Part shown: piece by piece, positions 7,231 to 60,833 of the stretch | Numbering within the stretch: the stretch's first letter is position 1 | Layout of the letters: every line of letters begins with the position of its first letter | DNA from: Tersicoccus phoenicis | Lineage (GTDB): Bacteria; Actinomycetota; Actinomycetes; Actinomycetales; Micrococcaceae | Direction: 5' to 3' | Assembly: GCF_001968835.1 (NCBI RefSeq) | Contig: NZ_MRDE01000076.1 | Span: 1-64,000, forward strand | Length of the DNA: 64,000 bases | Notes under the pieces: generated by a model | What the model was told of the DNA's origin: nothing | The model's database searches: none | The model's input: only the letters and a program-made list of their open reading frames with translations | Made by a program: the position numbers and the translations under genes

Positions 7231-7869
7231 ATGACCGCGACGCGGCGGAAGACCACCGAGGAACGCCGGGCGGTGCTGCAGGCCCTCCAGGCCAAGCAAC
7301 GGGCCGCCGACCGGCGCAGAGCCTGGTTGATCTACGGCACCGGTGCCCTCGTGGTCGCCGCGATCATCGCCTCGGTGACCTTCGTCATCGTCGGCGAGAT
7401 CAGGCAGCGTGATGCGACCCGCGCTGCTGCCGCCCGTCCCATCGAAGGTGAGCAGACCTTCTCCGGTCAATCCCGGAACCACACCACCGAACCCGTCACC
7501 TATCCCCAGACCCCGTCGACCGGAGGCGACCACGCCCCGGTGTGGACCAACTGCGGTACTTACACCTCACCCGTGGAGGAGACCCGTGCCGTGCACTCCC
7601 TCGAACACGGTGCGGTGTGGCTGAGCTACCGACCCGACCTCCCGAAGGACCAGGTGGCCAAGCTGACGGACCTGGTCGGCAGCCGAGACTACATCCTGCT
7701 GAGCCCGGTGCCGGAGCAGAAGTCGGCGGTGATGGCGACCGCGTGGGGCAAACAGCTCTCCGTCGACAGCAGTGGCGACCCCCGGCTGGCGCCCTTCCTC
7801 ACGAAGTATCGGCAGGGCCCGCAGACTCCCGAGCCGGGAGCCGTCTGCACCGGCGGCGTCCAGGGCTGA
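7231..7869 (+). CDS. DUF3105 membrane-anchored protein
   Basis: The protein has a charged N-terminus, one membrane helix (about residues 33-53) and an extracytoplasmic DUF3105 domain. Domain landmarks are PVWTNCGTY with a conserved Cys, VHSLEHGAVWLSYRP, and a C-terminal CTGG. The function of DUF3105 is not established; in actinobacteria it is often encoded next to DUF305 genes, as here. The ATG at 7231 has GAAAGGA upstream. No membrane enzyme motif is visible. Confidence 0.8.
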   Translation: MTATRRKTTEERRAVLQALQAKQRAADRRRAWLIYGTGALVVAAIIASVTFVIVGEIRQRDATRAAAARPIEGEQTFSGQSRNHTTEPVTYPQTPSTGGDHAPVWTNCGTYTSPVEETRAVHSLEHGAVWLSYRPDLPKDQVAKLTDLVGSRDYILLSPVPEQKSAVMATAWGKQLSVDSSGDPRLAPFLTKYRQGPQTPEPGAVCTGGVQG

Positions 7870-7898
7870 GCACGTCCCCGCGCCGCGCCGTCCGTGTG

Positions 7899-8090
7899 TC
7901 ACCACGTGGTGGCGAGCAGGGCGTCCAGCCTGGTGAAGGAGCTGTGCCAGCCCTCGGTCGAGGGCACGACGACGGCGGCCGGGAAGAGGCCCTGCCGCAA
8001 GTGCAGGATGGTACCGCCGCTGCGGCCGTCACGGAACTCGAGGTCGAGGTGGACCGGCTCGGTGAAGGTCAGGTCGTCGTGGTCACTCAT
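7899..8090 (-). pseudogene. C-terminal half of an SRPBCC/AHSA1-like domain
   Basis: Sixty-three codons resemble the last strands and the C-terminal helix of SRPBCC ligand-binding domains: a LDLEFRDG strand, GGTILHLRQGLF, then STEGWHSSFTRLDALLA. Family members have about 140-160 residues, so the N-terminal half is missing. The ATG at 8090 does have GAGAGGA upstream, so a short product could be made. The missing half would lie where the HNH gene now ends (8136), which suggests truncation by a rearrangement. It could also be an independent short protein. Confidence 0.5.
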
Positions 8091-34755: not shown

Positions 34756-36753
34756 ATGGACGAGGTATCCGACGAACCAGCCACCCGGGGCGGGCACCCG
34801 CAACCGGATGTCGCCGTGCAGCGGGATGACACCGTGCAACCGGCGATGATCGCGTCCTGGATCCGCGCGCTGGCCGGCCTCGCCTCCCTCCCCGTCGCTG
34901 TTCCCGGCCCTACCACTGGTTCTGTCGCTGGGCCGGGTCGATCCGGGCGCCCGACGGGTTCGCTATCCGTGACCAGTGAGCGCGCTCCTGACCCCGGTAC
35001 TCCAGCTTCCGGCGATCCGGCTGCCGGTACTGCAGGTTCGGGTGTTCCGGCTCTCACTGGCGGCTTGGGTGGCAGCGCTGTCCCCTCCGGTGGTGTTCCC
35101 GGTGGTGTGGTGTCGGGGGTGGGTGCGGAGTTGATCGATCGGATCCGTGCTCTGGAGGAGTTGAAGACGGCGGCTTCGGCGGCGCAGGTGCGGGCGACGG
35201 TGCAGTTCGAGGTGGTGCAGCGGGCCGCGCAGGCGGCGGTGGGGGTGCCGGCGGGGCAGCGGGGTGCGGGGGTGGGGGCGCAGGTGGCGTTGGCGCGGCG
35301 GGAGTCCCCGGCCCGGGGTGGCCGGTATCTGGGGTTGGCGCACTTGCTGGTGGCGGATCTGCCGCACACGTTGGCGGCGATGAGTGCGGGGACGTTGAGT
35401 GAGTGGCGGGCGACGTTGATCGCCCGGGAGACGGTGTACCTGGGTGAGGCGGCGGACCGGCGTGCGGTGGACGCGGCGTTGAGCGCGGACACCGGCGGGG
35501 TCGACGGTCTGGGGGATCAGGCCCTGGTGGCCGCGGCGCGGAGGATCTCGTACCGCATCGACCCGGCCGCGGTGACCGCCCGGGCGCGGCGGGCGGAGGG
35601 GGACCGGCATGTCACGTGCCGGCCGGCGCCGGACACGATGACGTATTTGACCGGGTTGTTGCCGGTCGCTGACGGGGTGGCCGTGTACGCGGCCCTGTCC
35701 CGGGAGGCGGACACGTTGACCAGTCGGGGGGACGGGCGTGGTCGGGGGCAGATCATGGCCGACACCCTGACGGCCCGGGTCACCGGCCACCCCCCGGTCA
35801 CCGCCCGCCGGGCCCAGGCCGGCATGGAGCCGAACGAAGAGCCGAACGGGCAGGCACCCGAGCAGGCGACCGGCGGGCAGGCGGGCAAGCACGCACCCGG
35901 CGGGCAGGCGACCGGTCAGGCGACCGGCGGGCAGGTACGGATCGGGCAGCCGCGGCGCACGCTGCCGGGCCCGTCCTGGCCCGGTCCGGCCGGTGGTGAA
36001 ACGCCGCGTGGCGGCCCGCCGCGCGATGGGGCACCCTCTGAGGACGCGCACGGCGAAGCGCGCCCCAATGATCGTCGAGCCGCTAAGCGGGCGCGGGTGG
36101 AGTTGCAGGTGGTGATCACGGATCGGGCGTTGCTGGCCGGGGGCGGGGAGCCGGCGTATCTGGCCGGGTACGGGATGGTCCCGGCCCCCTGGGCGCGGGA
36201 GCTGGTCGATGGCCGGACCGACGTGTTCGTCCGTCGCTTGTTCCTGGCCCCGGACACCGGGCAACTGGTGGGGATGGACTCGCGGGCCCGGTTGATGCCC
36301 GAGGGGTTGCGCCGGTTCATCCAGGTCCGGGACCGGACCTGCCGGACCCCGTGGTGTGACGCACCGATCCGGCACGTGGACCACGTGCACGCCCACGCCG
36401 CCGGTGGGGCCACCAGCGAGGTGAACGGTCAGGGCCTGTGCGAACGGTGCAACCACGCCAAGGAAGCCCCCGGCTGGGCCGCCGTGCCCGTCGAGGGGCC
36501 ACGACACACGGTGGTGACCACGACCCCCACCGGACACACCTACACCTCCACCGCACCACCCATCCCCGGCACCGGCATCGTCAGTCCGGCCGGGACGGCC
36601 GGTACGGTCAGGACGGTTGAGCGGGCTGGGACGATCGACCCGCCCGGGACGGTGAGCGCCGCAGGTCTGGCCCAGGCCGCCCAGGCCGCTGATGCCGCTG
36701 ATCCCGATGATGCCGCCGGCAGCGAACCGGTCACCGTCCTGTCGGCGAGCTGA
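34756..36753 (+). CDS. DUF222 (13E12 family) HNH endonuclease domain protein
   Basis: The DUF222 region spans about residues 125-340 (ELIDRIRALEELKTAASAAQ, then LGLAHLLVADLPHTLAAM, then MTYLTGLLPVADGVAVYAAL). After a low-complexity insert of about 90 residues with GGQATGQATGGQ-like repeats comes a C-terminal HNH nuclease: CRTPWC zinc half, RHVDHVHAHA with the catalytic His, GLCERCNHAKE. The family is multicopy in actinobacteria and some 13E12 genes are DNA-damage inducible in mycobacteria. The perfect LexA box 14 bases upstream supports the same control here. The tail after residue 600 is disordered. Its biochemical target is unknown. Confidence 0.9.
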   Translation: MDEVSDEPATRGGHPQPDVAVQRDDTVQPAMIASWIRALAGLASLPVAVPGPTTGSVAGPGRSGRPTGSLSVTSERAPDPGTPASGDPAAGTAGSGVPALTGGLGGSAVPSGGVPGGVVSGVGAELIDRIRALEELKTAASAAQVRATVQFEVVQRAAQAAVGVPAGQRGAGVGAQVALARRESPARGGRYLGLAHLLVADLPHTLAAMSAGTLSEWRATLIARETVYLGEAADRRAVDAALSADTGGVDGLGDQALVAAARRISYRIDPAAVTARARRAEGDRHVTCRPAPDTMTYLTGLLPVADGVAVYAALSREADTLTSRGDGRGRGQIMADTLTARVTGHPPVTARRAQAGMEPNEEPNGQAPEQATGGQAGKHAPGGQATGQATGGQVRIGQPRRTLPGPSWPGPAGGETPRGGPPRDGAPSEDAHGEARPNDRRAAKRARVELQVVITDRALLAGGGEPAYLAGYGMVPAPWARELVDGRTDVFVRRLFLAPDTGQLVGMDSRARLMPEGLRRFIQVRDRTCRTPWCDAPIRHVDHVHAHAAGGATSEVNGQGLCERCNHAKEAPGWAAVPVEGPRHTVVTTTPTGHTYTSTAPPIPGTGIVSPAGTAGTVRTVERAGTIDPPGTVSAAGLAQAAQAADAADPDDAAGSEPVTVLSAS

Positions 36754-37001: not shown

Positions 37002-38228
37002 ATGGCCACCCCAACCCCCGACGAGCCCGTCCGGTCCCGCCTGCGCCTGACTGGTGGGAAGGACCGGGTTGTCCTGATCGGCGCGCTCGGCATCCTGAGC
37101 GCGGTCAGCCCCATGGCCACGGACATCTACCTGGCGTCGATGCCGGCCATCAGCGCGTGGTTCGACACATCGGCGTCCGCGGTTCAGCTGACCCTCACGA
37201 CCTACATGATCGGCATGGCCCTCGGGCAGTTCGTCATCGGGCCGGTCTCCGATGTGCTGGGCCGCCACCGCCTGCTGGTCGCCGGCAACGTCCTGTTCCT
37301 CGTCTGCTCGTTGCTGATCGTCGTTGCACCGACCATCGAGACGGTGATGGCACTGCGGACGCTACAGGGGGTGGCCGGAGCCGCCGGCGTCGTCGTCGCC
37401 CGCGCCGTCGTCGCGGACATCTCCACCGGTCGGCAGGCCGCCAGACTGTATTCGATCCTGGCCACCATCACCTCGGTCGCGCCCGTCGTCGCGCCGCTGA
37501 TCGGCGGGGTGATCGCGACGGTGGCGCGCTGGCAGGTGGTGTTCTGGACGCTGACCGGATTCGGGCTGCTGATGCTGCTGTGCTCGGTGCTGGTGGTGCC
37601 CGAGACGCTGCCGGTGCACGCCCGTCATCCCGCGTTGCGGGGGGTGCTCGGCCTCTCCGCCCGGGTGCTGCGGAACGGCTCGTTCATGGCGTACGCCCTC
37701 TGCTTCGCGTTCACCTTCGGCTCGCTGTTCTCCTACATCTCCGCGTCCTCGTTCGTGATTCAGAACGTGCTCGGACTCTCCGCGCTGGCCTACTCCGTCG
37801 CGTTCGCCGTCAACGCGTGCGGCGCCATCGCCGGAGGCCTGGTCAACGTGCGCCTCGTGGACCGGGTGGAGCCGGCCGCCATCCTGCGGATCGCGGTGGT
37901 CGTCCTGTGCGCGACCAACGTCGTCGGCCTCGCCCTCATCCTCAGCGGGGTGACCGGCTGGACGACGCTGCTCCAGTTCCTCCTCGGGCAGACGGCCGTC
38001 GGTTTCATCATGGGCAACGCGGTCGCCCTCGCGCAGGGACGCGTGCCCGGCCTCGCCGGCGCCGGGGCCGCGGTGCTGGGGCTGCTGCAGTTCGTGCTCG
38101 GTGGTCTGGTGAGCCCGCTGACGGGCATCGCCGGCCAGCACACGGCCGTCCCGATGGCGCTCTCGATGGCAGTGTGGTCCACTCTCGCCCTCGGCGCCGC
38201 ACTCCTCGCCCGCCGGCTCAGCCGGTAG
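37002..38228 (+). CDS. Bcr/CflA-type MFS drug exporter
   Basis: A 408-residue, 12-helix exporter of the DHA1 Bcr/CflA group. Features are SPMATDIYLASMPAISAWF in TM1 with the family Asp, MALGQFVIGPVSDVLGRHR with motif A, LRTLQGVAGAAGVVVARAVV in TM4, and PLIGGVIATVARWQVVFW with motif C. The ATG at 37002 has AAGGA seven bases upstream; earlier in-frame starts at 36858 and 36936 add implausible basic sequence. The 248-base gap upstream shows no gene. Confidence 0.88.
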   Translation: MATPTPDEPVRSRLRLTGGKDRVVLIGALGILSAVSPMATDIYLASMPAISAWFDTSASAVQLTLTTYMIGMALGQFVIGPVSDVLGRHRLLVAGNVLFLVCSLLIVVAPTIETVMALRTLQGVAGAAGVVVARAVVADISTGRQAARLYSILATITSVAPVVAPLIGGVIATVARWQVVFWTLTGFGLLMLLCSVLVVPETLPVHARHPALRGVLGLSARVLRNGSFMAYALCFAFTFGSLFSYISASSFVIQNVLGLSALAYSVAFAVNACGAIAGGLVNVRLVDRVEPAAILRIAVVVLCATNVVGLALILSGVTGWTTLLQFLLGQTAVGFIMGNAVALAQGRVPGLAGAGAAVLGLLQFVLGGLVSPLTGIAGQHTAVPMALSMAVWSTLALGAALLARRLSR

Positions 38229-38285: not shown

Positions 38286-38606
38286 ATGACCATGCGCGCC
38301 TCGGCCAAATCCCTCGCCTCGCTGGGCTCGGTCCGCTCCATCGCCTCGGTCGGATCGATCGGATCGGTGGGCTCGGTCGGATCGGTGGGCTCCGTCGGAT
38401 CGGTGGGCTCGGTCGGCTCCGTGGGCTCCATCGGCTCCGTCGGGTCGACCGGCTCGATCGCCTCCATCGGATCGGTGGGCTCCATCGCCTCCATCAACAG
38501 CTTCGGCGGCCTCGGGGTCATCAACGGGATGCCGGTCCTGCTTCTCGCCGCCCTGGCATCCGTCCCCGCCGTCCTGTTGGTGCGGAGGCGACGCCGCCGG
38601 GGCTGA
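38286..38606 (+). CDS. Gly-Ser-Val/Ile tripeptide-repeat protein with C-terminal membrane helix
   Basis: A 106-residue protein. Residues 11-70 are an almost pure run of G-S-V and G-S-I triplets with a few S-I-A variants. Next come a short Gly/Asn segment, one hydrophobic helix (VLLLAALASVPAVLLV) and a tail of six Arg plus Gly. There is no signal peptide and no LPxTG. I do not recognise a characterised family. Such regular triplets with alternating hydrophobic residues could form a stacked beta structure or an extended surface fibre; that is speculation. The DUF1622 gene follows 93 bases later on the same strand. Confidence 0.7.
   Translation: MTMRASAKSLASLGSVRSIASVGSIGSVGSVGSVGSVGSVGSVGSVGSIGSVGSTGSIASIGSVGSIASINSFGGLGVINGMPVLLLAALASVPAVLLVRRRRRRG
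38316..38510 (+). repeat. In-frame tandem DNA repeat coding for the GSV/GSI run
   Basis: The stretch repeats a 9-base unit around TCGGTGGGC and TCCGTCGGA variants (TCGGT(G/C)GG(C/A)), three codons short, with drift in third positions. Codon variation (GGC, GGA, TCG, TCC, GTG, GTC) shows selection for the peptide rather than recent slippage alone. Copy number would be expected to vary between strains. Confidence 0.75.
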
Positions 38607-38699
38607 CGTCAGACCGGGCCGGATCCCCACAACGACGGCGTTGCCGGTGGTGCCGACAATGAACGACGAGATCCCCAACCAACCAGCAAGGACGCCCTG

Positions 38700-39053
38700 A
38701 TGACATTCACCATGATCATGGAGATCGCCGGCAAGATCCTGGACGGGGCGGGGGTAGCGGTCATCCTGATCGGCGCCGCGGTCGCCACCATCGCTGCCGC
38801 TCGCCGGCTGCTGAGCCGAACCCGCGTCGACGTCTACCCGCGCTTCCGCCAGCAGTTGGGCCGGTCCATCCTCCTGGGCCTCGAACTGCTCGTCGGTGCG
38901 GACATCGTCCGCACCGTAGCGATCACTCCGTCGCTCCAGTCGGTTACCGTCCTGGCCCTGATCGTCGTCATCCGCACCTTCCTCAGCTTCTCGCTCGAGC
39001 TGGAGATCACGGGTCGCTGGCCCTGGCAGAAGAAGAACGACGTCGTTGGCTGA
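38700..39053 (+). CDS. DUF1622 family membrane protein
   Basis: A 117-residue protein with two or three membrane segments (GAGVAVILIGAAVATIAAARR, then SILLGLELLVGADIVRTVAI, then TVLALIVVIRTFLSFSLELE). The sequence RQQLGRSILLGLELLVGADIV and IRTFLSFSLELEI are hallmarks of DUF1622. The function is not known; members look like small integral membrane proteins. AAGGA precedes the ATG. Confidence 0.85.
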   Translation: MTFTMIMEIAGKILDGAGVAVILIGAAVATIAAARRLLSRTRVDVYPRFRQQLGRSILLGLELLVGADIVRTVAITPSLQSVTVLALIVVIRTFLSFSLELEITGRWPWQKKNDVVG

Positions 39054-39178
39054 CGGCGAGCTGAAACGAACTTCAGGTGCCCGGCACAGCAGATGCACCC
39101 GGACGACGTCGCCGATGGCGGGACCGGAACTGGCCGTGCGCCCTGTTCCCGAACGAGGATTCCTGCCACGATGACGGC

Positions 39179-39826
39179 ATGGAGACCCTCACCGTCGACC
39201 AGATCCTCGACGCGTCACTGACCGACTGGCGACGGCTCGCCCAGGGACTGCACGCCCGCTACCGGACCGGGGACTTCCGCACGGGGCTAGCCCTGGTGGA
39301 CGCCGCGGCCGCAGCGGCCGAGACGGCGAACCACCACCCGGACATCGCGCTGCGACACGGCTCGGTCGAGTTCCGGCTGCTCAGTCACGACGCCGGTGGG
39401 GTGACCCAGCGTGACGTGGACCTCGCCCGGCGGATCAGCCGCATTGCCGCCGACCTCGGCGTCGACGCGACCCCGCAGCGGTTGGTGATGGTGGAACTGG
39501 CGCTGGACACCGCCCGCGTGGCCGAGCTCGGGCCGTTCTGGGCGGCGCTGCTGACCGGTTCGGCGGACAACGTGCACGGCGACGACGTCATCGACCGGAC
39601 CGGCCAGGTCCCCTTGGTCTGGCTCCAGCACACCGAGCCGCACGAGACACCGCGGCAGCGGTTCCATTTCGACGTGTGGGTCCCGCACGACGTCGCCGAC
39701 GACCGGATCGCCGCGGCCGTGGCCGCCGGTGGCCGGGTCGTGGACGACTCCTCGGCACCGTCCTTCACCGTTCTGGCCGACCCGGAGGGCAACCGCGCCT
39801 GCGTGTGCACCTGCCTCGAACGGTGA
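39179..39826 (+). CDS. Pterin-4a-carbinolamine dehydratase domain fused to a VOC (glyoxalase-like) domain
   Basis: Residues 1-100 are a PCD/DCoH domain: LARYRTGDF region, then the active-site NHHPD with paired His, a VEFRLLSH strand, and GVTQRDVDLARRIS. Residues 105-215 form a VOC domain (ELGPFWAALLTG, WLQHTEPHETPRQRFHFDVW, FTVLADPEGNRACVCTC). Standalone PCD enzymes have about 100 residues. The PCD part would dehydrate 4a-hydroxy-tetrahydropterin, but no aromatic-amino-acid hydroxylase is nearby. The start at 39179 fits both domains. Confidence 0.85.
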   Translation: METLTVDQILDASLTDWRRLAQGLHARYRTGDFRTGLALVDAAAAAAETANHHPDIALRHGSVEFRLLSHDAGGVTQRDVDLARRISRIAADLGVDATPQRLVMVELALDTARVAELGPFWAALLTGSADNVHGDDVIDRTGQVPLVWLQHTEPHETPRQRFHFDVWVPHDVADDRIAAAVAAGGRVVDDSSAPSFTVLADPEGNRACVCTCLER

Positions 39827-60272: not shown

Positions 60273-60833
60273 TCAGAACGGCGGCTCGGAATCCGCGCCG
60301 TTGCCCCACCCCGAGGAGGTGGAGGTGCCGGGCGTGGCCCACGGGTCGTTGGTGCCGGACTGCTGCGAACCGCCGCCGGAGTTGCCCCCGAAGCCGCCCT
60401 GGTTTCCGCCGCCCCCGAAGCCGCCGGAGTTGCCGCCGCCGAAGCCGCCGCCTCCCTGGCCGCCGCCGCGGGCATTGCGGTTGACCTTGGCCGAGGCATA
60501 CCGCAAGGAGGGGCCGATCTCGTCGACCTCCAACTCGGTGACGGTGCGCCGCTCGCCTTCCTTGGTGTCGTACGACCGCGACTTCAACCGGCCCTGAGCG
60601 ACCACGCGGGTGCCCTTGGTCAGTGTCTCGGCGACGTTCTCGGCCGCCTCACGCCAGACCGAGGCACGGAGGAACAGCGTCTCGCCGTCCTTCCACTCGT
60701 TGGCCTGCCGGTCGAACGTCCGCGGCGTGGACGCGATCGTGAAGTTCGCGACGGCGGACCCGGACGGGGTGAACCGCAACTCCGGGTCGGCCGTCAGGTT
60801 GCCCACGACGGTGATGACGGTCTCGCCTGCCAT
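60273..60833 (-). CDS. ssb: Single-stranded DNA-binding protein
   Basis: A 186-residue SSB. The OB-fold occupies about 1-115 ([19 protein letters not shown], then [19 protein letters not shown], then [16 protein letters not shown]). A Gly/Asn/Gln-rich flexible tail follows, ending in the acidic tip SEPPF that binds partner proteins. It is set between rpsF and rpsR, the usual order. A 130-base spacer separates it from rpsR. Confidence 0.97.

Follow-up and report, generated by a model that had tools for sequence, protein, structure and literature searches.

The triplet gene and its neighbours

The window we analysed is a stretch of 64,000 nucleotides from Tersicoccus phoenicis, and it carries on its plus strand a small open reading frame with an ATG start (38286..38606) for a Ser-triplet repeat protein of 106 amino acids. 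Residues 6-74 (38301..38507, +) form 23 in-phase triplets starting with Ser. The in-phase Ser run from residue 6 to residue 72 with zero off-phase Ser, and the highest count reached in 2000 residue shuffles was 15, compared to the real 23. After the triplets come GLGVINGMPVLLLAALASVPAVLLV and then RRRRRRG. The C-terminal part holds a cap motif, SFGGLGVINGMPV (residues 72-84; 38499..38537, +), which resembles the SxGGxGxxxGxPV found at four other loci (L086-L089), a predicted transmembrane helix at about residues 82-99 (38529..38582, +) and an Arg6 tail at residues 100-105 (38583..38600, +), the last being read directly from the sequence. The tail stays basic in the Tersicoccus relatives (RARRRRH in L002 and RRRSRG in L003). 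The earlier note had described a tiny protein made almost wholly of strict GSV/GSI triplets with a single helix and an RRRRRRG end. The helix and the end are present as claimed, and the strict triplets hold for the middle of the array but not for its ends, where ASI, ASL, ASV, GST and INS triplets occur. Repeat units of 9, 18 and 27 bp were identified at the array by Tandem Repeats Finder, and searches of the locus for Rfam families, promoters and terminators gave no matches.

This open reading frame is a protein-coding gene under purifying selection. Absence from close relatives, which the earlier note had raised against its own proposal, is not what we see, as intact orthologues are found in both other Tersicoccus genomes with 74% and 71% identity. 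The pN/pS of the triplet frame is 0.35, 0.39 and 0.46 in the three species pairs compared to 0.61-3.82 for the other five frames on both strands, making it the lowest of the six in every pair, and the whole-gene dN/dS is 0.24-0.35 (Nei-Gojobori), all of these figures being approximate because the alignment of a repeat is inherently uncertain. Differences at codon positions 1/2/3 number 21/12/49 between the window and L002 and 22/17/45 between the window and L003. The third-position changes that dominate here, together with the pN/pS ranking, bear out the synonymous drift and the selection on the peptide that had been proposed. The C-terminus, which has no repeat, gives the same selection trend when analysed alone, and at the 22 columns where Ser is found in all three species the same codon is used throughout at only 5. 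The purity of the array alone would be no proof, since GSVGSV runs arise elsewhere as apparently simple DNA repeats (L054, L055, L059, L061 and L206, one of them broken by a stop); the proof is in the comparison of species. Such runs, and the further open frames at the locus, two of them on the minus strand, lend something to the idea that this is a non-coding simple DNA repeat read as protein by chance, or that the true gene is on the opposite strand, but the pN/pS ranking in all three pairs and the conservation of the C-terminus outside the repeat make this highly improbable.

Upstream of the triplet gene is an MFS transporter gene (37002..38228, +; Pfam MFS_1, 1.1e-43), which we judged to be functionally unlinked; its cluster mate (F2) is found at position -1 in one of the other Tersicoccus genomes (G002) and at position -3 in the other (G001). 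Downstream is a gene (38700..39053, +) whose identification as DUF1622 is confirmed by Pfam (PF07784, E 3.3e-25), and this we judged to be outside of the system. It had been suggested that the two proteins could form a surface or membrane assembly, and that their co-occurrence be checked across genomes. The two genes are on the same strand and adjacent in the window with a gap of 93 bp, but a DUF1622 search of both other Tersicoccus genomes gave no match, and among the 28 genomes with triplet proteins there is a DUF1622 match in 8 and an adjacent one in the window genome alone. We therefore rejected the partnership, and a joint membrane assembly is almost certainly not what these genes encode.

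The downstream neighbour in G002 is convergent and is an APH-type phosphotransferase by Pfam, and in G001 it is convergent as well and a cluster mate of that gene. When window positions 38607-39178 are compared with the corresponding loci of the relatives (L107 and L108), the relatives have APH-type and DUF1905-type genes near the place of DUF1622, typed by Pfam for L108 and by clusters F40 and F41 for L107; this part of the window is a local replacement or insertion with respect to the other Tersicoccus. The next gene (39179-39826, +) is a fusion of pterin-4a-carbinolamine dehydratase-like and glyoxalase-like domains; in each of the other two Tersicoccus genomes a cluster mate of it (F27) lies close to the triplet gene. 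Across the 67 triplet loci described below no ORF cluster recurs as immediate neighbour at more than 3 loci, with ORFs called by a crude script. At 20 loci a single gene close by (mostly the upstream one, and not always the immediate neighbour) was typed with Pfam; 8 of these 20 genes had no match, and the others vary by locus, including MFS, NUDIX, arginase, Na/H exchanger, STAS and trigger factor types. As the neighbours differ between loci we rejected gene neighbourhood as a guide to function, and the protein seems to work alone.

Elsewhere in the window there is a DUF222/HNH endonuclease-type gene (34756-36753, +; Pfam PF02720 and PF01844) within which there are repeats at about 34994-35052 and 35847-35935. 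An ORF with a Gly-rich repeat tail and an acidic end (60273-60833, -) codes for what we take to resemble a single-stranded DNA-binding protein.

Relatives in the Actinobacteria

Of 59 genomes of relatives, 24 had a match to the whole window protein at E<=1e-3, which was strong only in Tersicoccus and at one simple-repeat locus. With a profile made from the last 45 residues, 18 of 295 family genomes had a match at E<=0.01; the three Tersicoccus stood at about 1e-28, and the remaining 15 had E-values no better than 6.5e-4. In genome_contigs this profile found 2 loci, both of them Tersicoccus. At the order level the C-terminal profile matched 8 of 297 genomes at E<=1e-3, the window's own among them, and four of the seven others (L041, L043, L044 and L046) have in-phase Ser triplets together with a similar C-terminal motif. 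Profiles of the triplet proteins themselves reached further. On 346 phylum genomes at E<=1e-8, profile A3 matched 19 and profile A4 matched 14, with the matches in G056, G372, G682, G809 and G844 set aside as simple repeats or unclear. The 21-row profile A5 matched 71 of 316 sampled class genomes at E<=1e-10, a count in which 8 genomes themselves supplied A5 rows, at least two are DNA-repeat artefacts and 20, including G056 and G372, do not belong to the members read. At E<=1e-16 the count at class level is 53 of 316, and at family level A5 matched 48 of 295 genomes at E<=1e-6 and 23 of 295 at E<=1e-12. The gene is usually single, with one match in the window genome and one listed match in 68 of the 71 positive class genomes. 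Some of the matches are not genuine, among them GSV runs resembling simple DNA repeats in G056 (with a stop), G372, G809, G844 and G204, and the second loci of G677 and G854 were left out of the reading. The run in G204 (L206, G204:C8, from 998, +) is a 749-codon open frame of more than 200 GSV/GST triplets that far exceeds the family length; it is probably a simple DNA repeat, and the gene proper may lie on the opposite strand.

The statement that no characterised relative is known agrees with the searches we made, which found none, and uncharacterised relatives are numerous. When 15 members were compared with Pfam and NCBIfam none reached the cut-off of any model. The solved structures gave 7 matches at E<=1, which are short stretches of eukaryotic or fusion proteins and include no bacterial repeat family. 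No paper on the triplet family was found in the literature by exact repeat strings, which led to one unrelated paper, by other wordings or by way of DUF1622, nor was any experiment on a member of it. Two plasmid records, both from Streptomyces, were found with one query and none with another, and the Streptomyces plasmid copy WP_164369710.1 is annotated just as "hypothetical protein". Searches of viral_contigs and phages gave no triplet relative by a BLAST-type confirmation that may lose sensitivity through low-complexity filters. Of 5 members compared with PHROG, only the window protein gave weak matches, to 10 families (best 6.5e-6) that include several tail fibres, and we attribute these to shared composition. 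A phage origin was rejected on these results.

To describe the family we read 68 loci, 67 fetched and the window, and a scripted search gave a triplet ORF for 67 of them, L182 being the exception; the ORF starts are those chosen by the script and some may be wrong. Ser makes up 98.7% of 1550 phase-0 positions, which is partly by construction given that the script picked the repeat by its Ser phase. In all 21 of the A5 proteins the in-phase Ser (23-41 or 19-27 per protein) exceed the maximum of 2000 shuffles of each, and jointly these proteins have Ser at 499 of 506 phase positions. The second residue of the triplet is mostly V, I, A or L and the third mostly G, L or A in the 67 proteins, and the number of triplets is 19-28 in 65 of them, with outliers of 42 and 13. 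The larger outlier (L085 in G211, 7543-8088, +) has nearly twice the usual number and contains ASAGSIASV units. The 67 proteins have a 9-residue superperiod, S-V-L-S-I-G-S-V-G, that is far above shuffles. It shows in the autocorrelation of third-residue Gly, which is 0.43 at a lag of three triplets (shuffle maximum 0.04) and 0.31 at lag 6, and is negative at lags 1 and 2. Additionally, the triplets follow a position-specific order, as would be expected of a folded domain, in 8 of the 10 canonical members that were held out and scored with a profile of other members, none of their 200 shuffles each reaching the real score; the two that fail are L186 (28/200) and L088 (111/200). A C-terminal hydrophobic segment above the cut-off is found in 34 of the 67 and not in 33, of which L148 and L177 narrowly miss, and the residues after the segment carry net positive charge in 28 of the 34 and not in 6. 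Five proteins (L151, L155, L157, L173 and L183) are only 73-93 amino acids long and have little beyond the repeat. This appears to be a widespread and unnamed actinobacterial group with Ser at almost every third residue, often membrane-anchored.

Placement of the Tersicoccus proteins

The 23 triplets of the window protein, all of them with Ser, lie within the family range of 19-28. The three Tersicoccus proteins jointly have a lag-3 Gly autocorrelation of 0.56 (shuffle maximum 0.29), a superperiod that by eye disappears where the window array turns to GSV in its middle and that could also stem from duplicated 27-bp units. In the triplet order test the score was reached by 25 of 200 shuffles for the window protein, 199 of 200 for L107 and 56 of 200 for L108, and all three fail the full-score version of the test too. 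The long protein L085 also fails (116/200). Given this failure the window protein is not a canonical member.

The C-terminal cap offers another comparison. The four loci with the SxGGxGxxxGxPV cap are from other families of the same order, and with their tail profile none of 3000 shuffled tails scores as high as the real ones, a test that is not independent and is biased to success as these loci were originally found by way of a profile of the cap region. Three tails from genus g22, in the bacterial family to which Tersicoccus belongs, show no clear match, with 637, 39 and 15 of 1000 shuffles reaching the score. Three features together tie the Tersicoccus proteins to the triplet family: the in-phase Ser, the superperiod and the GGxGxxxGxPV cap. 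On these we tentatively place them as a divergent branch of it, although they may be an analogue that arose by convergent repeat growth.

Structure and possible role of the repeat

The membrane helix with its basic tail, as proposed in the earlier note, is supported by hydropathy, with a mean of 2.48 in the best 18-residue window, and by the AlphaFold prediction, in which a helix spans residues 84-105 with pLDDT of 82, 92 and 93 in the last three blocks. The structure prediction suggested there thus gave a confident C-terminal helix and no confident model of the repeat: pLDDT is below 50 for residues 1-78 in the job with 3 sequences and 1-75 in that with 21, the former being the poorer of the two. 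For the window repeat we obtained a hydrophobic moment of 1.51 at 120 degrees and 0.07 at 100, in agreement with a step of three residues rather than with an alpha helix; any strict triplet pattern is bound to behave in this way. By eye there is no N-terminal signal peptide. As the repeat is nearly uncharged and the Arg6 would be inside by the positive-inside rule, the repeat would face outside. A similar arrangement has been described in part of a paper on SCO2900 of Streptomyces coelicolor, a tail-anchored protein of 110 amino acids with no signal sequence and a C-terminal helix ending in GGTRRRKR, which was retained in the membrane on carbonate extraction and for which protease treatment suggested an outside N-terminus (PMC3087755). 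The likeness is in the length of about 110 residues, the single C-terminal helix with a basic end and the N-terminus that is probably outside; the difference is that the conserved residues named in that part of the paper are Pro and Arg, with Ser triplets unmentioned there, and the two proteins are compared by description and not by sequence.

Known repeat architectures were considered as well. Collagen-like repeats (PF01391) share the triplet period and the window protein matches them weakly, but the match is below the cut-off (24.5 bits against 27.2) and the Gly pattern is wrong, with Gly at 38.8% of phase-2 and 0.3% of phase-0 positions in the triplet family, so collagen was rejected. A left-handed beta-helix of hexapeptides is disfavoured, as its 6-residue period predicts a signal at lag 2, where the observed Gly autocorrelation is negative. 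RTX-type nonapeptide beta-rolls presumably have a 9-residue unit in common with the triplet family, the likeness being in unit length alone, and the GGxGxDxUx sequence that we take to be their signature is not in the triplet family. Bactofilins, which we take to be small regular repeat proteins, some of them membrane-anchored, have no sequence link to it, and the window protein has no Pfam match over cut-off.

Our best explanation, a tentative one that may well be wrong, is that the window protein is a divergent, membrane-tethered member of this unnamed group, with a triplet array that is structural or adhesive and regular in a solenoid-like way. The group would comprise small, usually single-copy, stand-alone proteins with Ser-(I/V/A)-(G/L/A) triplets (about 19-28) in 9-residue units. 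These triplets could wind into a regular solenoid-like array with nine residues to a half or a whole turn, in which the Ser hydroxyls would line up as a ladder along one face and the aliphatic side chains would occupy a different one; such an array may stack or self-associate. In Tersicoccus the C-terminal helix would sit in the cytoplasmic membrane with the Arg6 in the cytoplasm and the repeat pointing outward without a signal peptide, and the role of the array, at the membrane or wall, would be structural or adhesive. Since a clear anchor is missing from about half of the proteins that were read, the working unit would be the repeat itself. More doubtful is the bolder version of this proposal, that the group represents a novel repeat fold, a Ser-ladder solenoid with three-residue steps grouped by nine, in self-assembling proteins that stand alone, are sometimes anchored and are found in about one fifth of the sampled class genomes.

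The alternative that survives best, although we consider it unlikely, is that the repeat is a disordered low-complexity spacer or a phase-separating segment, in which the Ser phase sets solubility with no fixed fold, and the Tersicoccus array may then be convergent with the canonical family. The low pLDDT of the repeat in both AlphaFold runs is what this would give, as are the high Gly and Ser, the resemblance of the middle of the window array to a fresh GSV expansion in 9- and 18-bp units, and the failure of Tersicoccus in the order test. However, the superperiod and the narrow range of triplet numbers are more regular than a spacer requires, and the position-specific order in the canonical members argues against it too.

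It is more improbable again that the Ser ladder is a substrate for modification, in a RiPP-like precursor or a Ser-glycosylated or phosphorylated surface protein. Ser at each third residue would suit such a role, and the best NCBIfam similarity of the window protein, at 32.5 bits against a cut-off of 55, is to the His-Xaa-Ser repeat proteins (NF038313, HxsA4), which also have a long array with Ser at each third residue. Additionally, a LanC-like gene is found two genes from one Streptomyces plasmid copy. The window protein, however, has no His, and among 14 triplet genomes none has HxsB (TIGR03978) over the cut-off, and the window genome lacks even a weak match. Weak radical-SAM matches are found in 8 of these 14 compared to 14 of 14 control genomes, and the limited recurrence of immediate neighbours, at most 3 of the 67 loci, also speaks against such a role.

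The triplet group matters because it combines such regularity with such a wide spread (71 of 316 sampled class genomes at E<=1e-10), and our searches gave no family model, no solved relative and no paper for it, a gap that further work could close. From its Ser phase a sharp structural prediction follows, and the members of 73-93 amino acids are of a size that NMR or peptide synthesis can handle.
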